This document shows positions 2,802-26,369 of a stretch of 45,114 bases of DNA, in pieces. How positions within the stretch are numbered: position 1 is the first letter of the stretch; each line of letters starts with the position of its first letter. This stretch comes from a virus. The notes beneath the pieces were generated by a model. It saw nothing but the letters and a program-made list of their open reading frames with translations, was not told the origin of the DNA and ran no database searches. The position numbers and the translations under genes are program-made. The stretch covers positions 1-45,114 of IMG/VR virus record IMGVR_UViG_3300005096_000108; one strand, written 5' to 3'.

Positions 2802-3643
2802 GCAATATACGCCAAAGAGCTATAAAAGCAGCGCAACTAACGCAGGCTGAGGTAGACGCTAATGACAAGATTCAGGTCTCTGGTCACGTTGCAAGTTATA
2901 CGCTAACGAAAAGTGACAATCAGGATACGCAGGAATTTAACGGAGCATCATTGGTTGCAACTCTACCTTCTGTCGCAACCATAACGAACACTTCAACTGG
3001 TTCTGAGACCGGTGAATTCACTACCACAATTAAAAATATACACTCTACTGCTCTAACTATCACCCCGAACGGCTTAGATAAGATAGATGGTGTCAATTCC
3101 TCTACTACTTTATCACCAAATCAGAGTATCACTTTACAGACAAATAATGCTACTGATGGATGGAATATCTTATCTAAGACTAATTTATTGAATAGTACCA
3201 AGCTCACCGCCCCCGCATCCTCAATCTCAATCGGATCACTCTCTTTTGCGGCAGATAAAGCAATAGAGGTTACAGCGCTTATTACAACGGTAACCGCCTC
3301 ACCAAATGTATATCTAATGATTAACGGGGACACTATATCAACAAATTATTATTCCTCACACTTTACTGACAATGGCGCTCCTGTTGCCGGTAATAACCCT
3401 GGAATATATGCTGTTGTTTTAGGACAGAGGATGTCACTTAATATGACTATTGTGCCTGATGCAACAAATAACCAAACACATATAATCACACAGATAACTT
3501 ATTTTACAAGTACAAACACAAACTCAGTTATCCATAATGCAGTCTATACAGCAAGCGGAACGGTGGCCTCTATTGGATTACGTGAAGGAACAGGGGCAAA
3601 TTATCTTGGAATCGGAACTATGTTAAGTGTGAAAGCAAAATGA
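2798..3643 (+). CDS. Tail fibre or tail-needle-knob candidate
   Basis: A 281-aa protein rich in Thr, Ser and Asn with no catalytic motif. Residues 1-30 are helical; residues 35-130 form a short-strand region (SYTLTKSDNQDTQEFNG...); from about 135 onward there is a beta-rich domain like the jelly-roll knobs that end needles or fibres. It follows the gp10-like gene, the position of the needle gene in P22-like phages. ATGA overlaps on both sides place it in the same translational chain. The exact role, needle tip or fibre, cannot be read from sequence. Confidence 0.55.
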   Translation: MSNIRQRAIKAAQLTQAEVDANDKIQVSGHVASYTLTKSDNQDTQEFNGASLVATLPSVATITNTSTGSETGEFTTTIKNIHSTALTITPNGLDKIDGVNSSTTLSPNQSITLQTNNATDGWNILSKTNLLNSTKLTAPASSISIGSLSFAADKAIEVTALITTVTASPNVYLMINGDTISTNYYSSHFTDNGAPVAGNNPGIYAVVLGQRMSLNMTIVPDATNNQTHIITQITYFTSTNTNSVIHNAVYTASGTVASIGLREGTGANYLGIGTMLSVKAK

Positions 3644-3741
3644 TAACTTTAAATTGGTTAATTAAAAAAGATATTGCACTCAATGAGTTCTTTGGCGGAA
3701 ACAATCAGCTCCCGCCTAGGTCGGCATATTATGAGAGATAA
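3640..3741 (+). CDS. Tiny coupled ORF in tail operon
   Basis: A 33-aa reading frame that starts inside the stop of the fibre candidate (ATGA). It contains IALNEFFGGNNQLPPRSAYY, which recalls the N-terminus of a small protein family found between tail and ejection genes of podoviruses. Its end overlaps the next tiny frame by 11 bases. Together they may represent that family split in two. No function is known to me. Confidence 0.5.
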   Translation: MITLNWLIKKDIALNEFFGGNNQLPPRSAYYER

Positions 3742-3850
3742 CTGTTTTGTATGTCGTCTCTTTTGCAGGGTGATTCTATTACCGCTTGGGATTTTAATTA
3801 ATCACGATTACAAGCATTGTCGTGATTCGATTCAGAAAAGATATAAATGA
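3731..3850 (+). CDS. Tiny Cys-rich membrane-type ORF in tail operon
   Basis: A 39-aa frame with three cysteines in CFVCRLFC followed by a hydrophobic stretch (RVILLPLGILI) and a polar tail. It begins within the previous tiny frame and ends in an ATGA overlap with the acetyltransferase-like gene, so coupling supports it. It is the probable second half of the small protein started at 3640. A point change joining the two frames would test this. Confidence 0.5.
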   Translation: MRDNCFVCRLFCRVILLPLGILINHDYKHCRDSIQKRYK

Positions 3851-13856: not shown

Positions 13857-13883
13857 ACTCATTCCTTAGATTAATTCCACAAG

Positions 13884-13936
13884 GCCCATTATTTTTAGGA
13901 CCAAATAATTATCGGGACCAATAAGCGTAGTTATAT
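13884..13936 (-). repeat. attC-like element, AT-rich type
   Basis: On the - strand it starts ATATAACTACGCTTATTGG, right at the end of the upstream gene. Fifty bases (13884-13933) match 17239-17288 at 44 positions. The core ATATAAC and placement match the other attC-like sites, but internal pairing is weak and no clear second core is present. Confidence 0.45.
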
Positions 13937-13937
13937 T

Positions 13938-14123
13938 TCAAAAACGTTCCCAAACGCTATCATAAGAATTTTCTTCTTTATTGAATCGGCGCATCCATCG
14001 TTCAGTGTTTCCCTTCACGTCTTCTGTTTCCTTCATTTCATTAAAGCAATTCTGGCAGCGAATATGACTTCCAAACCACCAAAAAACATTTCCGCCGCAT
14101 TCGCATTTTAAACTTTCATCCAT
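13938..14123 (-). CDS. Zinc-ribbon-like small protein
   Basis: A 61-aa protein with CECGG near the N-terminus and CQNC about 14 residues later, a likely four-cysteine zinc ribbon. Start chosen at the ATG nine bases after GGAG; an upstream in-frame ATG covers the ribosome site itself. The C-terminus is charged and aromatic. It lies in the attC-like array. Function unknown. Confidence 0.65.
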   Translation of the reverse strand: MDESLKCECGGNVFWWFGSHIRCQNCFNEMKETEDVKGNTERWMRRFNKEENSYDSVWERF

Positions 14124-14180
14124 TTCATTATCTCCGTAAAAATATAACAATCATTTCGGTCGCTTGTCATTGCATTACAT

Positions 14181-14441
14181 TTAAAACAAATTAAGCTTTT
14201 CTTTTAAATGGTTTATCATCTCAGCCATTAATTTAGCTGTACGTGCATTAGGGTTTTTTAAATCTAATGTATCATTTCCGGCAGAAGTTGAGGCGCATAC
14301 CTCGCACAGCAATCTTTTGTCTGTTTCATGCGGCTCTGAATATGGTGGTCCCCAATCAAATGTATCCGTAGGAACTTCGCAGTGACAACTATTGCATGGG
14401 GCTGTATCGCCGTATTCATTTTCTCTTTTTTGGTATCCCAC
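14181..14441 (-). CDS. Zinc-binding small protein
   Basis: An 86-aa protein read from GTG at 14441, six bases after an ACGGAG ribosome site; a TTG at 14447 abuts the site and is less likely. It has CNSCHC and CEVC about 31 residues apart, a treble-clef or ribbon-type zinc site. The tail is helical (ARTAKLMAEMINHLKEKL). Its upstream neighbour is a well-formed attC-like site. Function unknown. Confidence 0.65.
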   Translation of the reverse strand: MGYQKRENEYGDTAPCNSCHCEVPTDTFDWGPPYSEPHETDKRLLCEVCASTSAGNDTLDLKNPNARTAKLMAEMINHLKEKLNLF

Positions 14442-14459
14442 AATCAACTCCGTAAATAA

Positions 14460-14541
14460 ATATAACTATAAATCCAGGTGACGCGCAGGTGTTTGCGTCT
14501 CATTCGAGTTCGGTGCCGCGCACCTGATTAAACTGTTATGT
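14460..14541 (-). repeat. attC-like recombination site b (82 bp)
   Basis: Plus-strand ends are ATATAAC and GTTATGT. Arm AATCCAGGTGACGCGC (14471-14486) pairs with CCGCGCACCTGATT (14516-14529); the unpaired C and A in the first arm look like attC extrahelical bases. The stop TAA of the gene at 14536 lies inside the core, and the other core precedes the ribosome site of the 14441 gene. Confidence 0.75.
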
Positions 14542-14868
14542 GTTGTTACCTCGGTAATTCTTTATTGCGGAAATAACTTCCTGCCTACTGAATCCGTGTT
14601 TTTCAGCATCGCTTAAAATCCTTTCCCTAACTTTTATTGCGTTTTTGTTTATCATGACAAATTCAAAATTATTTGCTGGTAGAATTCCGTCTACCCCCTG
14701 TCTTCCTGTGCATATGCTTTCATCATATTCCTCGCATTCATTATGATACTGCCTCGAAAACTCAAACAGTAATTCTTCGCGTTCATCACTTTCAAATATG
14801 CCACATAACAGGTCATTCGAGAGGGGCGCACTACCTTCTGCGGTTATTACAGGTTCATAGGCTTCCAT
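14536..14868 (-). CDS. Acidic small protein whose start lies in an attC-like site
   Basis: A 110-aa acidic protein, start chosen at the ATG five bases after AAGGAG; an upstream ATG at 14901 has no good site. The last third (KVRERILSDAEKHGFSRQEVISAIKNY) is helical. The first 22 codons overlap the arm of attC-like site c, so its N-terminus may have been made by cassette joining. Its stop codon is inside the core of site b. Family unknown. Confidence 0.55.
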   Translation of the reverse strand: MEAYEPVITAEGSAPLSNDLLCGIFESDEREELLFEFSRQYHNECEEYDESICTGRQGVDGILPANNFEFVMINKNAIKVRERILSDAEKHGFSRQEVISAIKNYRGNNT

Positions 14869-14931
14869 CCAATCTCCTTCTTTATCTATTTCTTCATTCA
14901 TAATCGTGCGCCCCTCAATTCGTCGTTAGGC
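14803..14931 (-). repeat. attC-like recombination site c (129 bp, long loop)
   Basis: Plus-strand cores ACATAAC (14803-14809) and GTTAGGC (14925-14931). Arms GAGGGGCGCAC (14821-14831) and GTGCGCCCCTC (14906-14916) are perfect inverted repeats; ATTCG/CGAAT pairing continues outward with extra bases. The length is close to that of long Vibrio-type attC sites. The right core holds the stop of the next gene. Confidence 0.7.
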
Positions 14932-15204
14932 GTTATCCCGTTGGTGTAATGCTTTCTCACATGACTTTCGCAACTCGGCCTGTTGATCCCTTGCGACAGT
15001 CATTAAACCTAGATTAAGCTCAAGCTCTTTGATTCTTTCGTGTGCCGCACCACAAAGTTCACGAATATCAACTTCGCATGATGTGTCAGCCCCGCTTTCT
15101 GTCTCACCATAAATATCAATAGTATTTCCTTCTATTTGGTCTGCGTCAGCACACGAAACATCACGTAAAAACCAACATAAATTATCACCATAATCTTGTG
15201 CCAT
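14926..15204 (-). CDS. Small acidic protein, cassette-borne
   Basis: A 92-aa protein from the ATG eight bases after AGGAG; the longer frame to 15285 runs through the neighbouring attC-like site. The N-terminal half is acidic with several cysteines (CWF, SCAD, SCEVDIRELCG), the C-terminal half is a long helix (AHERIKELELNLG...). The stop TAA lies within the GTTAGGC core of site c. This is a typical single-gene cassette layout. Function unknown. Confidence 0.65.
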   Translation of the reverse strand: MAQDYGDNLCWFLRDVSCADADQIEGNTIDIYGETESGADTSCEVDIRELCGAAHERIKELELNLGLMTVARDQQAELRKSCEKALHQRDNA

Positions 15205-15219
15205 CGCCTTATCTCCTGC

Positions 15220-15298
15220 GCCTAACAAGGCGGTCGAGTCATTCACGTTGTTCATTCGGACGCACAAAAAGCGTGCGCCGCTCACCTGGGCGTTATAT
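15220..15298 (-). repeat. attC-like recombination site d (79 bp)
   Basis: Plus-strand cores GCCTAAC (15220-15226, a perfect RYYYAAC) and GTTATAT (15292-15298). Text between includes AAGGCGGTCGAGTC and GTGCGCCGCTCACCTGGGCG, very like classical 59-base elements, with an inner CGCAC/GTGCG hairpin. An AGGAG ribosome site follows the GCCTAAC core on the - strand. Confidence 0.75.
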
Positions 15299-15348
15299 TA
15301 CTATTTCATCACAAGATATAATAAGGCATCCCTTATTTTACCTTTTAC

Positions 15349-15768
15349 CTACTCATACACCGTCTCAACATCAATCCCATGAATCGCCTTCATCAGCTTG
15401 CAGTTAAACCTGTACCTTATCCATGATGCGGTTCCTTGTAGGTATCTTCTCTGCGCCGCCGTCTTAGCTTTCGGCTTGAAGTCCTCAATGATCAAGTTAG
15501 AATTTTTGTCGAGATACCAGTAATCAGGCGTGTATTTTGCAATCAGGACTCCATTTACCTCTAGCCTGTATGTTTCCCTGTGGTATTCAAGATTAAATAT
15601 TTCCCCAGCCTTCTCAAGCAACTCCCTACGCTTGAATCCTGCGCACTCACCAATAGAGTCAAATATCACGCCATTGTATTCAACCTTTCTGCTTTGTATT
15701 TGCTTTCGACCTTTCCTGGCCACCTTCTTATGCAATTTATCCAAGTCTGCTTTTGTGGATGATTTCAT
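15349..15768 (-). CDS. DUF1064-family putative nuclease
   Basis: A 139-aa protein matching the DUF1064 pattern common in lambdoid and other phages: KVEYNGVIFDSIGECAGF near residue 30, GEIFNLEYHRE at about 56, then Y-T-P-D-Y-W-Y...IIEDFKPK. The acidic residues D-x(n)-E-D-x-K resemble a PD-(D/E)XK nuclease core, so a junction or DNA-end nuclease is a reasonable inference. It starts on the stop of the 57-aa gene (ATGA). Attached attC-like site d follows its stop by 51 bases. Confidence 0.75.
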   Translation of the reverse strand: MKSSTKADLDKLHKKVARKGRKQIQSRKVEYNGVIFDSIGECAGFKRRELLEKAGEIFNLEYHRETYRLEVNGVLIAKYTPDYWYLDKNSNLIIEDFKPKAKTAAQRRYLQGTASWIRYRFNCKLMKAIHGIDVETVYE

Positions 15769-15938
15769 GCCGGTTTCCTCCCAATCGAAACTGGACGGGC
15801 CTCATTCATTACCCTTCCGCACCTCGCGCAACACATCGACATTTTAAACCCCTGCTGGTGTCCAAACCTGCTATCTGTAGTCCAGGAAATGAGCTTCATC
15901 TTCGTTCTTTTGTGATCGCAGAGCATTAGGTGTTTCAT
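15765..15938 (-). CDS. Small zinc-finger-like protein
   Basis: A 57-aa protein encoded between the Ref-like and DUF1064 genes, with ATGA overlaps on both sides. CDHKRTK near the start and CCARCGRV in the middle suggest a two-knuckle zinc site. The coupling on both sides makes the frame convincing despite its size. Likely accessory to the recombination genes around it. Confidence 0.7.
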   Translation of the reverse strand: MKHLMLCDHKRTKMKLISWTTDSRFGHQQGFKMSMCCARCGRVMNEARPVSIGRKPA

Positions 15939-16210
15939 AGTCCAAGTCTCTCATTAACGATTCCAAGCCAATATTCCTCGGCTCCATTTATTTCTTCCCA
16001 CCGCTTTTTTCCATCGTGGAGCGAAATCCCATAGCCGTGTCCACGGTGGCAGCGCGGGCAAAGGGGAAGAACTTTCATATGGTCGCGTCCACCGCCTAAA
16101 TGCGTCCCACAATGGTGTACCTCTGCCGGGCTGTAGTGTATCAGGCAGCCGAGGGCTTGCACGGCATCCATATGTCGTTTTTCTGCTACTGTCGCTGCCT
16201 TCTTAGTCAT
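15935..16210 (-). CDS. Ref-like HNH nuclease (RecA-dependent nuclease family)
   Basis: A 91-aa protein. It opens KRHMDAVQALGCLIHYSPAE, then VHHCGTHLGGGRDHMKVLPLCPRCH and a closing YGISLHDGKKRWEE helix. This fits the compact HNH family that includes P1 Ref (recombination enhancement function, a RecA-dependent nuclease): H-H...H...C-x-x-C-H residues are all present. Expected role: DNA cleavage during recombination or at RecA filaments. It overlaps the DUF1367 gene at its start and the 57-aa gene at its end. Confidence 0.78.
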   Translation of the reverse strand: MTKKAATVAEKRHMDAVQALGCLIHYSPAEVHHCGTHLGGGRDHMKVLPLCPRCHRGHGYGISLHDGKKRWEEINGAEEYWLGIVNERLGL

Positions 16211-16619
16211 ATCCGATCACTTGCAAAAGTTCCTCGTCAGCCATTCCTTTACCAAGCTCGCGGAGAAACACGTCAATCGCCGTACTGAATAGTTTCTCAA
16301 ATTCATCTTCATCCATAGATTCAAAACTAATTGATTTAGGCTTGAACATCTGGCTTCCGTTTGGAGCGATTATTATATCGAAATATCCGCATTTCAAAAC
16401 AAGCCAGTACCTGTATGCTTTAAACTCAGTAAAAAAGTCTTGCATATCGAACGTCATATTTAAAAAAGAAAAGAACCGCTTATGCTGTTTATAGTTCCTG
16501 ACCTTTGTGATCTCTTGCTTCACAACTGTGCCAGGCTTCAACTTATAAAGGTAATTCCACGTATCCTCATCTGCTGCTATGAGGGAATTGTTATTATCCT
16601 TTATTAGGAATGCCTTCAT
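16203..16619 (-). CDS. DUF1367-family protein
   Basis: A 138-aa protein with the DUF1367 pattern: KAFLIKDNNNSLIAADEDT at the start, KPGTVVKQEITKVRNYKQHKRFFSFLNMTF in the first third, then an aromatic segment and an acidic C-terminal helix. The family is common beside recombination genes of lambdoid phages and its function is unknown. It starts in the stop of the previous gene and overlaps the Ref-like gene by eight bases, forming one co-translated unit. Confidence 0.78.
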   Translation of the reverse strand: MKAFLIKDNNNSLIAADEDTWNYLYKLKPGTVVKQEITKVRNYKQHKRFFSFLNMTFDMQDFFTEFKAYRYWLVLKCGYFDIIIAPNGSQMFKPKSISFESMDEDEFEKLFSTAIDVFLRELGKGMADEELLQVIGYD

Positions 16620-16861
16620 TGCTCAACAATGACTCTATATTTTGGTGCGCCATCAACTCTAGCGGCGATCGACTGCCATGTTGATTCATATTCAGGCCAG
16701 CCTGATTCAACAACCACGCATTCAATTTCTTGTTTGCCGTCGATCGCTCTGCCGTTATTTATTGATGAACAAATAGCTGCGAGATTGGCTTTTTCACAAC
16801 CATCCAGATATGTTTCGGCGTCCTTTATCTTGATCACGATGTATCGATTTTCTTTTTTCAT
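16616..16861 (-). CDS. Small conserved-looking protein, unknown
   Basis: An 81-aa protein. The ATG at 16861 has AAGGA seven bases upstream, favoured over the longer frame to 16927. It shows MKKENRYIVIKIKDAETYL at the start, then a GRAIDGKQEIECVVVESGWPEYE stretch, an alpha/beta pattern. ATGA overlap with DUF1367 suggests the same role or complex. No known family. Confidence 0.65.
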   Translation of the reverse strand: MKKENRYIVIKIKDAETYLDGCEKANLAAICSSINNGRAIDGKQEIECVVVESGWPEYESTWQSIAARVDGAPKYRVIVEQ

Positions 16862-17124
16862 TGCGAAATCCTTATAATCTGATATGGCACATGTAAGTAA
16901 TCTTGCGTAAAATCTTCTAAATACCAATTACCGAATTTCTTGAAATATAATCCCTTCGTATTCTCGTATAATTTAACCGAGTTTATATTACCAGTATTAT
17001 GATCCACCACATCAACATATTGATCTAACCCGCATTGTCCATTCGGGTGCTGTTTTTTGCTGTATATTTCCCTTAATATTGAGAATCGACCATTTGATTT
17101 AAGTGTTTGTTGCTTAATAATCAT
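16858..17124 (-). CDS. Small protein, unknown
   Basis: An 88-aa basic, aromatic-rich protein (YFKKFGNWYLEDF near the end). The start ATG has no clear ribosome site. It overlaps the next gene by ATGA, which supports the frame. It is the first standard-sized gene of the block running down to DUF1064. Family unknown. Confidence 0.55.
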   Translation of the reverse strand: MIIKQQTLKSNGRFSILREIYSKKQHPNGQCGLDQYVDVVDHNTGNINSVKLYENTKGLYFKKFGNWYLEDFTQDYLHVPYQIIRISQ

Positions 17125-17145
17125 TGAAATCTAATCAGCATTAAT

Positions 17146-17205
17146 CTAAAAATTATAGTAAAGACCGGCGCTGATGGTGCTCATGTCGCGGTTCGGTAGT
17201 TTCAT
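17146..17205 (-). CDS. Possible 19-codon leader peptide
   Basis: An ATG with a strong site (GAGGAAATTGAA) opens a 19-aa frame, MKLPNRDMSTISAGLYYNF, ending 21 bases before the next gene. It may be a leader that brings ribosomes to the poorly initiated 17124 gene. It starts shortly after an attC-like element. Small size makes it uncertain. Confidence 0.35.
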   Translation of the reverse strand: MKLPNRDMSTISAGLYYNF

Positions 17206-17231
17206 TTCAATTTCCTCATTTTAGATTTAGT

Positions 17232-17291
17232 CTACTGCGCCCATTAAAAATAGGACCAAATAATTATTGGGACTAATAAGCGTAGTTAGGC
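17232..17291 (-). repeat. attC-like element e, AT-rich type
   Basis: On the - strand it begins with a perfect RYYYAAC core GCCTAAC and ends near GTAGACT (one mismatch to GTTRRRY), with outer arms CTACGC/GCGCAGTAG. Bases 17239-17288 match the element at 13884-13933 at 44 of 50. The gene 17286 stop TAA lies in the core. Confidence 0.55.
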
Positions 17292-17519
17292 TTCATAGTC
17301 ACAATAAAACGTATCTGAATCATGCTTGTTTCCAGCCTCATCTGTGAAAAAATTTACATCACCAATATCGTTCACTTGCAATTTACCCACAACGTCTATT
17401 CTTATAAGGCCCGTTTCAACGTCAATATCATATATAGGCCATTCATCACCGCCGTAAAATGTGGCAATAAATGGCTGGGGCAAACTATTAATATAATCCA
17501 TTCTTAATAAATCAGACAT
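17286..17519 (-). CDS. Small protein, cassette-borne, unknown
   Basis: A 77-aa acidic protein; the ATG at 17519 lies eight bases after GGAG, preferred to the upstream frame. It has a beta-rich pattern (IATFYGGDEWPIYDIDVETGLIRI). The stop TAA falls inside the GCCTAAC core of element e, and attC-like site f lies just upstream. It is therefore one complete cassette. Family unknown. Confidence 0.65.
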   Translation of the reverse strand: MSDLLRMDYINSLPQPFIATFYGGDEWPIYDIDVETGLIRIDVVGKLQVNDIGDVNFFTDEAGNKHDSDTFYCDYEA

Positions 17520-17542
17520 TTTATTACTCCGTAGTAAAATCA

Positions 17543-17625
17543 ACATAACTCTTAAATCCAGCCGACGCGCCATACATCATCACTCTTATCATCCAGATGC
17601 GGCGCGACTGATTACTTTGTTATGC
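17543..17625 (-). repeat. attC-like recombination site f (83 bp)
   Basis: Plus-strand cores ACATAAC (17543-17549) and GTTATGC (17619-17625). Arm AATCCAGCCGACGCGCC pairs with GCGGCGCGACTGATT with unpaired bases, the same design as site b. The stop of the gene at 17620 is inside the right core; the left core leads into a TACGGAG ribosome site. Confidence 0.75.
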
Positions 17626-17901
17626 CTCGCAAACCATTGTAAACCCGAAGCCTTCCACTCCGTCTATAACAGCACTTTGGAAGTCGTTACTATCAGGCTC
17701 AAAAACAACTTTTAGTTTGCCTCCTCGAATATGGCCTACGGTATAATCAAAACCCTCTCCTTCTTCAATTTGCTTGAAACCGTCATTCACAATTTTTTCA
17801 AGATTTACTTCTTTGGAATAAAACAAATAAGGCATAACCAGCACATCCACCGGACTTACTGCCTCATTGCTTGACTCTATTTCTGTGGTTTCATCTACCA
17901 T
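17620..17901 (-). CDS. Small acidic protein, cassette-borne, unknown
   Basis: A 93-aa acidic protein with GGAG eight bases before the ATG. The N-terminal 18 residues are acidic and disordered-looking; the rest alternates strands and helices (KVVFEPDSNDFQSAVIDGVEGFGF). Its TAA stop lies in the GCATAAC core of site f. The upstream boundary is only a half site. Family unknown. Confidence 0.65.
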   Translation of the reverse strand: MVDETTEIESSNEAVSPVDVLVMPYLFYSKEVNLEKIVNDGFKQIEEGEGFDYTVGHIRGGKLKVVFEPDSNDFQSAVIDGVEGFGFTMVCEA

Positions 17902-17952
17902 TTTGTTTCTCCAGGTTCTATGGTTTCAATCCGCAAGCCCGTGATGAGTGTC

Positions 17953-17959
17953 GTTATAC
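17953..17959 (-). repeat. attC half-site (core only)
   Basis: GTTATAC on the plus strand holds the stop TAA of the upstream gene, as in the complete sites, but the opposite arm and core expected near 17905-17925 are absent. It may be a decayed or deletion-trimmed attC. Confidence 0.35.
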
Positions 17960-18295
17960 CTTCCGCCAATTATCGCGGTATTCTTCGGCCTCATATATGC
18001 CTAATTCAAATGATCCGCTTGCCACAATTACCTGGAGTGCCTTTGCGGTTTCCTTATGGAGAGCCAGCATTTTCTCTTCCTGTTCTTCCGTAAATTCTGG
18101 GTAATCTGGATCACCATTTTCAGGAACGATATCTAAAATCTCACCAATGTCATAGTACACACCGCTATTACCATACGGTCGTTTTGGATCAACCTCTGGT
18201 GCGCCAAATCCACAATATTCGTTATATCGAATATTCATCCTACGAATGAGATTCAAATGCTGTTCAGTTAATTTAAATCGAACTTTATCAAACAT
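17954..18295 (-). CDS. Acidic protein, cassette-borne, unknown
   Basis: A 113-aa acidic protein with GGAG nine bases before ATG. It opens FDKVRFKLTEQHLNLIRRM, a helical stretch that could be a small HTH-like or structural start, then GAPEVDPKRPYGN and an acidic EFTEEQEEKMLALHKETAKAL helix. Its stop lies in a GTATAAC core and a full attC-like site is upstream. Family unknown. Confidence 0.65.
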   Translation of the reverse strand: MFDKVRFKLTEQHLNLIRRMNIRYNEYCGFGAPEVDPKRPYGNSGVYYDIGEILDIVPENGDPDYPEFTEEQEEKMLALHKETAKALQVIVASGSFELGIYEAEEYRDNWRKV

Positions 18296-18323
18296 AATTA
18301 TTTCTCCAAGTTAATAATATCAG

Positions 18324-18383
18324 GTATAACAATCGCATCGAGAGCGACAACAAAAAGCGTTGCGCCTCATGCGAGCGTTATGT
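18324..18383 (-). repeat. attC-like recombination site h (60 bp)
   Basis: Plus-strand cores GTATAAC (18324-18330) and GTTATGT (18377-18383), the classic 60-base length. Arm CGCATCGAGAGCGACAAC pairs with GCGTTGCGCCTCATGCG around an AAAAA loop, leaving unpaired bases. The left core is followed on the - strand by TTGGAGAAA and the start of the 18295 gene. Confidence 0.75.
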
Positions 18384-18385
18384 GT

Positions 18386-18604
18386 TTAAGTAAATGAATA
18401 AGCCATATCAACCAGCTTGTTTAATTCCTGCCTATGGTACGTACCAACATATTGAGGCTGCCCACCATACTGTGGAATCTCAAAAAGCACATAAACATCG
18501 TGCACCCTTTGCACTTCTCCCCCACCTTCTTCATGCCAATTCACATAGCGCCATTGAGTAGGCATCATCTTCTGCAATAGCTCTAAATCTCTATCTTTTT
18601 GCAT
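18386..18604 (-). CDS. Small protein, cassette-borne, unknown
   Basis: A 72-aa protein; ATG at 18604 lies nine bases after GGAG, preferred to the longer frame. It is alpha then beta (KDRDLELLQKMMPTQW, then VHDVYVLFEIPQYGGQPQYVG). It ends three bases before the core of site h and site i lies directly upstream, making it a single-gene cassette. Family unknown. Confidence 0.65.
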   Translation of the reverse strand: MQKDRDLELLQKMMPTQWRYVNWHEEGGGEVQRVHDVYVLFEIPQYGGQPQYVGTYHRQELNKLVDMAYSFT

Positions 18605-18626
18605 TATCAGTATCTCCAAATAAACC

Positions 18627-18713
18627 ACATAACAATTAAATCCAGCGAACGTGAGATAGTTCAGCACTTTTCTCTAGCCTAATACCGCACGTTCGCTGAT
18701 TATTGCGTTATAT
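18627..18713 (-). repeat. attC-like recombination site i (87 bp)
   Basis: Plus-strand cores ACATAAC (18627-18633) and GTTATAT (18707-18713). Arm AATCCAGCGAACGTGAG pairs almost perfectly with CGCACGTTCGCTGATT, with one extra C, the hallmark of an extrahelical base. This is the clearest stem of the set. Confidence 0.8.
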
Positions 18714-18714
18714 T

Positions 18715-18906
18715 TCAAGCAGCAGTCATTTCAACATCACACATTCCATCTAAAGAAAGTTGGCGTTTAATGTCTTCGTCTTCTATGCAGTCAATATGGA
18801 CAACAAAAGCAAGCATTACCTTCGCCTCTTTTTGGAAATTAATCCATGTGTAAGTAGCTTCAATCATATCGCCATCTTTTTTATGTTTTGTTAATAAGTA
18901 TTTCAT
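18715..18906 (-). CDS. Small protein, paralogue of the 26643 gene
   Basis: A 63-aa protein with AGGAG six bases before the ATG. MKYLLTKHKKDGDMIEA at the start and FVVHIDCIEDED in the middle parallel the 71-aa protein at 26643 (MKLMFRQHKDDPEIVEI, GVVHIDMIADDP). One copy is in the attC-like array and the other in the early + strand operon. The stop lies two bases before the core of site i. Function unknown. Confidence 0.65.
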   Translation of the reverse strand: MKYLLTKHKKDGDMIEATYTWINFQKEAKVMLAFVVHIDCIEDEDIKRQLSLDGMCDVEMTAA

Positions 18907-18919
18907 ACGTTCTCCTAAA

Positions 18920-19005
18920 ATATAACAATAAAAATCAACTCTGACGGCCAACTCTCCGTCTGTTTTCTGTGCATTATTCCGCCGCAGGTTATTTTGGTGT
19001 TATAT
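18920..19005 (-). repeat. attC-like recombination site j (86 bp)
   Basis: Plus-strand cores ATATAAC (18920-18926) and GTTATAT (18999-19005). Arm AATCAACTCTGACGGC pairs with CCGCCGCAGGTTATT leaving several unpaired bases. The stop TAA of the 19005 gene shares the core; TAGGAG follows the other core. Confidence 0.7.
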
Positions 19006-19211
19006 TACTGCCTAAGACGTGGCGTGATAATTGGTGGCTTTTTATCATTGATAGCCGACGTCAAAAAATCTTTAACAAATTCATCGTCATTAATCCCACG
19101 CATAACCGAAATCATCGTTGCCGTCATTATGCTCGCAAAGTCTTGCATTTGGTCGGCATCTAAGCCCTGCATTAAATGCAGTACTTTATTTGCTAGTTCA
19201 TCTGCTTTCAT
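19005..19211 (-). CDS. Small helical protein, unknown
   Basis: A 68-aa, mostly helical protein (ADELANKVLHLMQGLDADQMQDF). The start has only a weak GGA site. The stop TAA touches the core of site j, making it the most upstream gene with a clear attC-like partner. Upstream is only a short GTTAACG remnant. Family unknown. Confidence 0.6.
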   Translation of the reverse strand: MKADELANKVLHLMQGLDADQMQDFASIMTATMISVMRGINDDEFVKDFLTSAINDKKPPIITPRLRQ

Positions 19212-21559: not shown

Positions 21560-21676
21560 ATCTGTTGAAGCTTGGATACGTGCTCTCATCACTGTTCAAT
21601 GCAAGAGTTGGTCGCTCGTTGCAGATAGTTAATCCTAGCCCCGTCTGGCATCTCTGTCAAATGGGGCTTTTTATTT
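21560..21676 (+). ncRNA. Predicted small RNA of about 115 nt
   Basis: No protein gene on the + strand explains a promoter (21526-21553) and a good intrinsic terminator (21637-21676) this close together. The transcript would carry GC-paired segments and end in a hairpin with a T-run. It converges on the end of the rtcB gene, overlapping its last two bases. Its targets are unknown; antisense action on the transcript of the right-hand genes is possible. It is inferred from signals only. Confidence 0.45.
21637..21676 (+). terminator. Intrinsic terminator, + strand
   Basis: AGCCCC (21637-21642) pairs with GGGGCT (21663-21668), with further pairing inside the loop (TGGCA/TGTCA), followed by TTTTTATTT. 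The T run lies on the + strand only, so it ends a rightward transcript rather than rtcB. Confidence 0.7.
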
Positions 21677-22889
21677 ACCCTTTAATGTTAACCATTGGTT
21701 TTATGTGGGTGATAACTTCAACTAGATCAGATTGAAGATCCATTACCTCGAAAATATCCTTGTATGCTTCTGGCGATTCATCGACGGTTGATTCGTCAAC
21801 TTTTGCAGTGATGCCGCGCATTGACGCAATAAAGTTTTCTGGATCAATTTCGTCTCTAGCTTTTTTCCTGCTCATGACGCGCCCGGCACCATGCGAGCTT
21901 GACCATAAGGATTCTGGGTTCCCTTTCCCTTTTACGATAAAAGAACCATCGCGCATATTTCCGGGGATAACCCCCATCATTCCTTCTTCTGCATGGGTTG
22001 CGCCTTTTCTGTGTATCAAGAGTCCATTCCTTTTTGTTGCATGGTTGTGATTTCTGTTTATTAATTCAGAAAAATCTCCTGAATATGCAGATTTCCCCGA
22101 AATAGCGGCTAGCACAGCGATCACCCTAATCATCATTTCCTTTCTGTTTGCGAGAGCAAATTCAAGACACCAATTCATATCTTTAATATAATCTTTTCCC
22201 TCCTTCGACTTGACGTCAAATGCATAATGGCCTTCTTTTGGACGAAGCTTGCCCATTTTTTTAGCGATAAACTTTTCTTTATAACTGTCATATTGATCAG
22301 GATTATGAATTTTCACTTGTTTATTAGCAGAATCAAATTCAATTCCTATTTTTTCAGGATCGCTAGATGCTTTAGTCATGTAGTGGGTGGCTATCCCATG
22401 CCCAACACCTCGGCTACCTGAGTGTATAACCACCCAGATACAATTATCTTCATCGAATCCGATTTCTATAAAATGATTTCCCCCTCCAAGGGAACCGATG
22501 GCGCGGTGGTGATTTTTTCTTAATGCGATCACCTCACCTTCTTTTGATAGCCCTTTCAAAGAATATTTTTCGCCTGTATCATTAATTTTGAAGCCAACGG
22601 GAATTGACTCATACAATAGATCGAAAATATCACCGCTATGCACATCTACGTCTGATACTGAAACGTCAGGTAGGGCCAGGGCACACATGCCGCACCCAAT
22701 ATCGTATCCAATCCACGCCGGGACAATAACTCCATCAGTGGCGACGACAGCTCCGATAGGGAGGGAGTATCCTGTATGAGCATCTGGCATTAAAGCCCCA
22801 GACACAACGAAATCTTGATCCATTGCATCATTGAATTGATCAAGAGCGTCATTTTCTAATGTTTCTGCGTAAATCTTGTATGGTTTCAT
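21675..22889 (-). CDS. rtcB: RtcB-family RNA ligase
   Basis: A 404-aa GTP- and Mn-dependent ligase that joins RNA 2',3'-cyclic phosphate or 3'-phosphate ends to 5'-OH ends. Signatures in order: PDAHTGYSLPIGAV (about 35-48), GYDIGCGM with Asp63 and Cys66 as metal ligands, GSLGGGNHFIE, HSGSRGVG, RNHNHA, the GATHAEEGMMGVIPGNM loop, and SSHGAGR with the histidine that is guanylylated. Length is typical of the E. coli-type enzyme. AAGGA precedes the ATG. A tRNA gene lies 77 bases upstream on the other strand. Likely purpose: repair of tRNA or rRNA cut by host anticodon nucleases or toxins. Confidence 0.95.
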   Translation of the reverse strand: MKPYKIYAETLENDALDQFNDAMDQDFVVSGALMPDAHTGYSLPIGAVVATDGVIVPAWIGYDIGCGMCALALPDVSVSDVDVHSGDIFDLLYESIPVGFKINDTGEKYSLKGLSKEGEVIALRKNHHRAIGSLGGGNHFIEIGFDEDNCIWVVIHSGSRGVGHGIATHYMTKASSDPEKIGIEFDSANKQVKIHNPDQYDSYKEKFIAKKMGKLRPKEGHYAFDVKSKEGKDYIKDMNWCLEFALANRKEMMIRVIAVLAAISGKSAYSGDFSELINRNHNHATKRNGLLIHRKGATHAEEGMMGVIPGNMRDGSFIVKGKGNPESLWSSSHGAGRVMSRKKARDEIDPENFIASMRGITAKVDESTVDESPEAYKDIFEVMDLQSDLVEVITHIKPMVNIKG

Positions 22890-22966: not shown

Positions 22967-23042
22967 CAGGGAATAGCTCAGCTTGGTAGAGTCCTCGCCT
23001 TGGAAGCGAGTTGCGCAGGTTCGAATCCTGCTTCCCTGACCA
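22967..23042 (+). tRNA. tRNA-Pro (anticodon TGG)
   Basis: A 76-nt cloverleaf: acceptor CAGGGAA/TTCCCTG, D arm GCTC/GAGT, anticodon arm CTCGC-CTTGGAA-GCGAG, T arm GCAGG-TTCGAAT-CCTGC, discriminator A and encoded CCA. The loop reads anticodon TGG, for proline codons CCN, especially CCA. The D stem has one G-U pair and the variable loop has four bases. It is transcribed opposite to the protein genes on both sides. Confidence 0.88.
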
Positions 23043-24044: not shown

Positions 24045-24315
24045 AGGGTTCGGTCATTGTTTTCTCCAGCTCAACAATCCTGTCAGCCTGTTTATTGCAG
24101 AGCCTAACAAGCCGGTCGTTGTAAGAGGTTATGTCTTTGATTTCCTTGCCACCAGCAGCACGTTCAAGATACATAAGTAAGCCGCTTGGTCCATATCCGT
24201 CCTCTGTGTAATTATCCCAGCGTTCATCAAGAATCATGTGCGCACGCTTACAAAGCTGCTGCATATCGGCAATCCTGCGTTTTAGCTCTGTGATTTCGTC
24301 TTTATCTGAACTCAT
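24034..24315 (-). CDS. Coiled-coil small protein
   Basis: A 93-aa protein from ATG 24315, four codons inside a longer TTG frame, with GGAG seven bases before it. Two helical segments (ITELKRRIADMQQLCKRAHMIL and NDRLVRLCNKQADRIVELEKTM) look like coiled coils joined by a Gly/Tyr-rich turn. It overlaps the end of the radical SAM gene by 14 bases. Function unknown. Confidence 0.6.
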   Translation of the reverse strand: MSSDKDEITELKRRIADMQQLCKRAHMILDERWDNYTEDGYGPSGLLMYLERAAGGKEIKDITSYNDRLVRLCNKQADRIVELEKTMTEPYDT

Positions 24316-25318
24316 GCTTGTCTCCAATCGATCTGTTTGTTAGCGCGTGGCTAGCTTTTTTATTAAAGTCAACGCAAACATCAAGACAATTATGCTTGCA
24401 GATGTCATCAAAGTGAGGATTTGTACTCTCAAACCATTCAAAGCGCGCCGCCCTCATGTGTTCTCCGACCGTACCGATAGGCTGGCCCTGTTCCCTCATA
24501 TAAATTACGCAAGGGTAGTGATCCTGGCCTGCAATAATTGAATCATCCAAAACCAGAGGGCAGGATTTTGCAGAATCGTTTACAAGACCCCTGATTTTCT
24601 TTCCACCTATGAAATTTTCAACTCTATATTTCAGTATCGGATGCCTGCTTAATATTTGTTGATCTATATTTGCAAGCTCGATTAATGGCTTATCCCATTG
24701 AGCCGAAGGGATTACTCTGATATCAGAAACGCCTAATGCGCTAGCGTAGTTCACGATATCAATAAATCTTGAGATATTATCTAACTCCAAGACGACACCA
24801 ACAGTCACATAAGTTTTCTTTGATATCCATTTAATATTGTGAACGACTTTATCCCACGCACCATCAATATTTCCTGCCATAATATCCCCGACACCAGAGC
24901 TTGCAGCATCAAGGGAAATTGAAAAATCATTGCAACCAGCATCAAGAAGATGTTGATATATTTCTGGTTTATTAGATCCATTTGTTGAAATTGCGATCCT
25001 TTTGATGCCTTTTTCTTTTGAGTACTCTACCGCCTCAATTATATTTTTATGATAAGTTGGTTCTCCGCCAGAAAACCGTATATTTTCAAGCGGACCATTA
25101 TCGCACCACAGATCAATATTCCTTTTGATCTCTTTAATGGTGAGTTCTTTTCTTTTTCTGTCATCAAACACCTGCCCAGCTAATCCCCGGCAGTAAGGAC
25201 ATTTAAAATTACAGTACTCATTTATAATCATTTCGCATCGTTTCATTTGCGATTCATGGGCCACGTTGAATGCTCTCTCATCGCTTAGCGTGTAAAAACC
25301 TATATCTTCTAGCTTCAT
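24302..25318 (-). CDS. Radical SAM protein, SPASM-like C-terminus
   Basis: A 338-aa enzyme. The radical SAM cluster motif is C36-NFK-C40-PY-C43, followed by FSGGEP (SAM binding) at about 83 and a TNGS stretch. The C-terminal third has cysteines in SCPLVL, HYPCV and ICKHNCLDVCVDF, which could hold an extra iron-sulfur cluster as in SPASM or twitch domains. These enzymes act on peptides, nucleotides, tRNA or cofactors through a deoxyadenosyl radical. The 55-aa Cys-rich gene is coupled to its start by ATGA. Substrate unknown; proximity to rtcB and tRNA makes an RNA or nucleotide target attractive. Confidence 0.85.
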   Translation of the reverse strand: MKLEDIGFYTLSDERAFNVAHESQMKRCEMIINEYCNFKCPYCRGLAGQVFDDRKRKELTIKEIKRNIDLWCDNGPLENIRFSGGEPTYHKNIIEAVEYSKEKGIKRIAISTNGSNKPEIYQHLLDAGCNDFSISLDAASSGVGDIMAGNIDGAWDKVVHNIKWISKKTYVTVGVVLELDNISRFIDIVNYASALGVSDIRVIPSAQWDKPLIELANIDQQILSRHPILKYRVENFIGGKKIRGLVNDSAKSCPLVLDDSIIAGQDHYPCVIYMREQGQPIGTVGEHMRAARFEWFESTNPHFDDICKHNCLDVCVDFNKKASHALTNRSIGDKHEFR

Positions 25319-26211: not shown

Positions 26212-26369
26212 GCGGTGGTGGCGGAATTGGTATACGCGTCGGACAGTTAATCCGATGCCTGTAACGAAGAAACGGCGTGGGCACACGTGGAGGGTTTATC
26301 TCTCGCGACAGTTACAGGCAAAGCACATGAGGCTAGTGTGTTGTAGGTTCGAGTCCTACCCTCCGCACC
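26212..26369 (+). tRNA. Class II (Leu-like) tRNA-like element with long variable-arm insert
   Basis: Acceptor GCGGTGG/CCTCCGC (one T-T mismatch), D arm GCGGAATTGGTATACGC as in bacterial leucine tRNAs, anticodon arm TCGGA-CAGTTAA-TCCGA, and T arm GTAGG-TTCGAGT-CCTAC are clear, but 87 bases separate the anticodon and T arms. The insert holds a perfect 10-bp repeat (26256-26265 with 26311-26320). The loop reads GTT at the anticodon position but has A, not U, at position 33. The 3' end is ACCT, not CCA. It could be an insert-bearing tRNA, a decoy or a decayed gene. Confidence 0.5.

Follow-up and report, generated by a model that had tools for sequence, protein, structure and literature searches.

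A tailed-phage genome with eight attC sites and cassette genes that run against them

Introduction

Small genes separated by inverted repeats in a virus genome, IMG/VR virus record IMGVR_UViG_3300005096_000108, raise the question of whether these repeats are attC sites, the recombination sites of integron cassettes, and how such sites and their genes are arranged in a phage. The whole record of 45,114 bases was analysed and is referred to below as the window. It is regarded as a tailed phage because it encodes a terminase and a portal-like protein and, for recombination, RecT, NinB and a Holliday junction resolvase-like protein, and from about 13.4 to 25.3 kb its coding lies almost entirely on the - strand. 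An original prediction, made from the letters alone, had described an integron-like cassette array in this region. We find that the sites are attC, that all of them lie on the + strand and that the cassette genes without exception run antiparallel to their own attC, an arrangement which recurs in other phages and is rare in bacteria.

Results and discussion

Identification of the attC sites

Two covariance models were used. The first, R1, was made from 24 trimmed reference attC sites, with class 1 integrons (from plasmids and a P1 phage), a Vibrio phage with a captured host integron, a Shewanella prophage and phage TJE1 as sources. Since R1 with its filters off missed long-loop sites, probably an effect of model length, the second model, R2, was based on real sites, namely 48 full matches found with R1, none of them from the window. 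R2 was run unfiltered on both strands of all 45,114 bases and gave exactly eight attC matches, all on the + strand within 14,460-19,005 and scoring 22.9-49.9 bits, from 18324-18383 (49.9 bits, E 3e-8) down to 17543-17625 (22.9 bits, E 0.011). The best leftover, at 15.2 bits, came from the opposite strand at one of these sites, and below it lay background of no more than about 12 bits. All seven inverted repeats to which the original prediction had given positions are among the eight, and their single orientation was likewise borne out. With default filters, R1 recovered six of the eight sites and missed two.

The identification as attC was confirmed by independent features of the sites. A hand-written scanner that follows box, spacer, bulged base, L arm and second bulged base ranked seven of the eight above the rest of the genome. 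The R'' and R' boxes and the L'' and L' arms are present, the TAAC...GTTA ends are kept in all eight, and extrahelical bases stand on one arm, less clearly at the 18627 site (one bulge). When the eight sites were aligned together, pairing was found in 87.7% of cells, as against 74% in shuffled sequences and 27-45% with the arms slid, and double-sided changes at 12 of 21 pairs demonstrate covariation among hairpins that differ in sequence. Bottom-strand DNA folds placed bulged bases on the 3' arm at several sites, in keeping with the published part of extrahelical bases in strand choice (PMC2727003), and the fold of the 18324 site reached a z of -4.4.

R2 adds the site at 17832-17959, which the original prediction had not listed. 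The weaker repeats to which that prediction also alluded include a probable half-site at 14142-14165, recognised by eye and missed by R2. At 24102-24134 (+) there is also a short attC-like inverted pair, GCCTAACAAGCCGGTCG...GTTATGT, whose 13.2 bits equal background and which is perhaps a degenerate site.

No integrase accompanies these sites. The tyrosine recombinase family PF00589 had no match across the whole record, while all 14 of 14 positive-control genomes matched, and tblastn with IntI gave no match in the record. The eight sites lie on one strand, less than 0.5 kb apart inside each of two blocks, well over the two neighbouring attC that define a cluster of attC sites without integrase (CALIN). 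The array is therefore a CALIN; the intI gene of a complete integron is missing, as PF00589 is absent.

Polarity of genes and attC sites

In the reference sites the top strand carries two extrahelical bases in its 5' arm and is also the strand on which the gene is read; such bases determine the recombining strand and the cut position (PMC2727003). In the window the extrahelical bases are on the + strand, and R2 scores the + strand above the - strand at every site by a margin of at least about 8 bits, whereas all genes are on the - strand, so that each cassette gene is antiparallel to its own attC. This opposition had been overlooked in the original prediction. The integron-cassette layout that it proposed holds for attC score, box and arm layout, extrahelical bases, covariation and clustering, and breaks down at the direction of the genes: the standard cassette, in which an open reading frame (ORF) parallel to the attC is followed by it, is seen in none of the eight.

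Parallel cassettes thus number 0 of 8 in the window against 51 parallel and 8 antiparallel in the bacterial controls, judged by the longest ORF (Fisher P 2e-6). As the relation of gene to attC is internal to the cassette, inversion of a whole array is unable to produce the flip. Rescanning of published phage CALINs indicated that PH101 and MW202573 appear flipped and that TJE1 is standard; P12002L had no scanner match. Flipped arrays make up five of seven among phages, an array-level contrast with bacteria that is modest (Fisher P 0.017, two bacterial arrays being unclear), and the seven do not form an independent sample because three were reached through one gene family. No earlier report of gene-attC inversion was found in the open-licence papers searched, and no remark on flipped polarity was found in the sections of PMC9892861 consulted.

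Layout of the two arrays

The attC sites form two blocks, attC 1-3 (array A) and attC 4-8 (array B), with core recombination genes in between. The features are given below with coordinates and strand (RBS, ribosome-binding site).

13866..13933, +, putative attI-like repeat copy A: direct repeats GGACCAAATAA and GGACCAATAA, then AAGCGTAG|TTA; predicted cleavage after G13930
13938..14123, -, cassette gene, zinc-ribbon-like small protein: ORF, leader TTACGGAG; no confident family
14142..14165, +, probable half attC (R'' and L'' only): seen by eye, ATATAACAATCATTTCGG
14181..14447, -, cassette gene, small CxxC protein: ORF, leader GTTATATTTATTTACGGAG
14460..14541, +, attC 1: R2 28.5 bits; top canonical scanner score of the genome; predicted cleavage after G14535
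14536..14868, -, cassette gene: phrog_27964, E 3e-14, Burkholderia phage homologs; stop codon is the first 3 bases past the cleavage point, start within attC 2
14803..14931, +, attC 2: R2 42.3 bits; predicted cleavage after G14925
14926..15204, -, cassette gene: ORF, RBS CAGGAG; stop codon at the cleavage point
15220..15298, +, attC 3, right end of array A: R2 29.0 bits
15349..17124, -, phage core genes between the arrays: Holliday junction resolvase-like, phrog_1588, NinB and others; phrog_190, phrog_319 (3.6e-34), phrog_7810
17223..17288, +, putative attI-like repeat copy B: from alignment with copy A; predicted cleavage after G17285
17286..17519, -, cassette gene: ORF, RBS CGGAG; stop codon directly follows the attI-like G
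17543..17625, +, attC 4: R2 22.9 bits; scanner 43.0
17620..17901, -, cassette gene: RBS GGAG; stop at the cleavage point, start within attC 5
17832..17959, +, attC 5, absent from the first list of repeats: R2 32.4 bits
17954..18295, -, cassette gene of a phage family: carried as a flipped cassette by viral contigs L048 and L060 as well (65% and 50% identity)
18324..18383, +, attC 6: R2 49.9 bits; the - strand has three extrahelical bases in its 3' arm
18386..18604, -, cassette gene: ORF, RBS GGAG
18627..18713, +, attC 7: R2 26.5 bits
18715..18906, -, cassette gene: ORF, RBS AGGAG
18920..19005, +, attC 8, right end of array B: R2 38.1 bits
19005..19211, -, gene past the last attC: ORF; no attC on its far side; either a last cassette that lost its own attC or a phage gene

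A stop codon stands directly at the cut in four cassette genes and in the first gene after copy B, and the RBS and start lie just past an attC or, in two cases, within one. As TAAC occurs at both attC ends, the position of these stops was not counted among the evidence for polarity. A right flank common to the ends of the two arrays, GTTATATTACT, covers 10-11 bases only and was set aside as weak.

The cassette products are small proteins without assigned function, for which Pfam, PHROGs and PADLOC returned almost nothing. The two cassette genes with known homologs, at 14536 and 17954, both match phage proteins.

A cassette gene shared with other viral contigs

The protein of 17954-18295 has a 65% identical homolog in L048, the viral fragment IMGVR_UViG_3300022920_000334, where its gene is situated between two attC sites of the opposite strand. 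The blastn similarity between the two covers 17953-18241 of the window and ends on the predicted cleavage base, 17953, and no other gene is clearly shared. A wider search collected 80 viral loci with this protein family, of which one more carried attC by R2. This locus, L060 (IMGVR_UViG_3300025326_000989), encodes a protein with 50% identity to that of the window, and its gene is again flipped, flanked by attC of opposite polarity. Two attC of L060 share a 63-bp block that extends into the leader and ATG of the following gene, from which it follows that the attC travels with the gene downstream of it.

The family (A5/A6) is a phage family of about 113 amino acids with a KRPYGN motif and at least 88 viral relatives. 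The AlphaFold model of the window protein is a confident one (pLDDT 95.6); a PDB fold search gave no match, and among the libraries searched the fold was matched by phage proteins only. The gene had no plasmid match. In L060, the shared cassette gene is separated from the following attC by a gene-free, G+C-rich stretch with long inverted repeats (3640-3760).

Relation to known integrons and phage CALINs

CALINs in virulent phages (TJE1, PH101, P12002L and MW202573) were published in 2023 by Qi et al. (PMC9892861), and a phage CALIN as such is therefore not new. The original prediction was right that a tailed phage carries an attC array, and its view of this as unusual is tempered by that publication. 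Those CALINs are likewise attC clusters without integrase, and their genes are small ones and methyltransferases; when six phage attC were tested with IntI1, five recombined, and the PH101 attC comes from the same published set (PMC9892861). The window differs from them in its eight attC in two blocks, the uniform flip, an attI-like repeat for each block and a cassette gene common to other phages. What is new here is accordingly that genes and attC are uniformly inverted, that this inversion recurs, that a cassette gene is shared and that attI-like repeats are present. Five loci were obtained when viral contigs were searched with an attC pattern, and a single one proved to be a true array, in an unrelated 43.4-kb phage (IMGVR_UViG_3300010413_000065) with about nine attC at 29.8-33.1 kb and 36.4 kb. 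It is apparently an undescribed phage CALIN, and unlike the window its genes are mostly parallel to the attC. In the 'reverse integrons' of Treponema, which share an unusual orientation, it is the integrase gene that is reversed and not the attC-gene relation (PMC7691350, PMC3607928).

The attC family of the window, AAATCC-AGNNG-A-C ... CTGATT, is also that of bacterial chromosomal integrons (Methylomonas WSC-6, Methylococcales symbionts, Methylophaga and others), which differ in having IntI in some loci (L037, L044, L042) and cassettes mostly parallel to the attC. The pattern AAATCCAG...CTGATT matched 15 bacterial contigs against about one expected by our own estimate; 13 of them score as attC, many being methanotrophs or other Gammaproteobacteria. 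This sequence likeness ties the window sites to real integrons and hints at a host group. The earlier suggestion that genes were traded with host integrons goes beyond these data: the attC family does occur in bacterial integrons, yet the homologs of both known cassette genes are phage genes and the better-studied one lacks a plasmid match.

Left-end repeats and alternative explanations

At the left end of each block stands one of two near-identical copies of a repeat of about 70 bp, A and B, which is not an attC and is located where an attI would be expected for + polarity. Its direct repeats and core resemble the attI form of Methylomonas, Shewanella and class 1 integrons, and it is a roughly even call whether the repeats are attI-like entry points. 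Somewhat less probable, though a serious competitor to this attI part of our interpretation, is that they are a duplicated phage promoter or leader and that cassettes enter by attC x attC recombination or at ordinary genomic sites. Each repeat does lie upstream of a leftward gene start, and neither a third copy in the window nor any copy in the viral contigs and bacterial genomes searched was found; against this, close identity halts at G|TTA, the very point at which both blocks have the start of their first cassette, and direct repeats beside a core site are typical of attI. Upstream of intI in the Methylomonas locus L037, an attI region holds several TTATCGGGCA-type repeats before a G|TTAGGC core. 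Promoter-like sites, looked for as candidates for the integron promoter Pc, were no more frequent than in shuffles, and transcription from a promoter at the attI side would run antisense to the cassette genes.

That the array is a passive remnant, a piece of host integron acquired by ordinary recombination whose attC are no longer used, would suit the missing integrase, the half attC at 14142-14165, the overlap of two attC with the 5' end of a coding region and the lack of attC in the nearest relatives. We hold it to be unlikely, as host arrays are overwhelmingly parallel and that of the window wholly antiparallel, the cassette genes with homologs are phage genes, the same cassette gene is flanked by attC among different neighbours in other viral contigs, and the stems still co-vary. 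It is very improbable that the hairpins are intergenic RNA elements (terminators, processing or translation signals) that merely look like attC. They do lie between genes of one operon and would fold in the transcript, and terminator-like sites at 13-26 kb are about twice as frequent as in shuffles; the attC model for DNA, however, separates the sites from background with clear strand polarity, the conserved ends are kept throughout, no Rfam family except tRNA matches, and 592 kb of other phage DNA gave three matches only, all by the same gene in L060.

Several observations weigh against reading the array as cassettes in use. The covariance-model E-values are rough, and in the DNA folds the 17832 site does no better than shuffles and the 15220 site only a little better. 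Some of the bacterial 'antiparallel' calls are based on short ORFs, and identity within the L048 cassette stops short of its attC. The left-end repeats could be the promoter or leader duplication weighed above, and their absence from the other sequences searched counts here as well. With default filters, a less sensitive setting, no attC was seen in the nearest phage found, whose terminase is 65% identical, and the same holds with these filters for the phages with related terminase (G001, MW202796 and OK172329). INPHARED contained no DNA match to the record, and a NinB search for close relatives yielded distant ones only.

Proposed mechanism and implications

On balance we judge it quite probable that the phage carries accessory genes as attC cassettes which are moved in trans by an integron integrase. 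The attC identity, the polarity, the absence of an integrase and the reuse of a cassette gene in other viral contigs, with a similarity boundary at the cleavage base, were all observed in this analysis; recombination itself, the integrase source and the attI role are inferred. The mobile unit would be an attC hairpin together with the small gene that is transcribed next after it. The attC bottom strand would be the coding (-) strand, which the integrase would fold and cut in the R' box at G|TTA, at or a few bases from the stop codon of the neighbouring gene, and the cut attC would be joined to another attC or to an attI-like repeat, the two left-end repeats being possible entry points. Since the phage has no recombinase, gain, loss and shuffling of cassettes would need an integrase in trans, from the host or another element.

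The origin of the flip can be considered speculatively in two ways. Selection may have produced it if the entry site fixes attC polarity and only genes that match the leftward phage transcript are kept; alternatively, heavy transcription may expose the coding strand for folding. Tentatively, and as a rather unlikely extension, phages could hold their own pool of inverted-polarity cassettes, loaded at phage attI-like sites by host-supplied integrase. Were this so, phage genes captured in a host integron would be antisense to Pc and, once back in a phage, aligned with the operon, and phages would exchange genes with one another by way of integrons.

Phage CALINs have so far been known as odd cases resembling bacterial arrays. 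The flip in several unrelated phages, a reused cassette gene and a possible phage attI would together make integron recombination a means for phages to trade accessory genes. Both the polarity flip and the cassette-exact boundaries can be tested with existing assays and large viral sequence sets.

Other features of the region

Beyond the arrays, an RtcB RNA ligase gene (21675-22889) adjoins tRNA-Pro(tgg) at 22967-23042, possibly as a tRNA repair pair, and a radical SAM protein is encoded at 24302-25318 in the - strand early region. One further gene, at 26212-26367, is tRNA-like by Rfam (tRNA, 42.1 bits) and goes unreported by ARAGORN; it has an insertion of about 80 bases after the anticodon arm.

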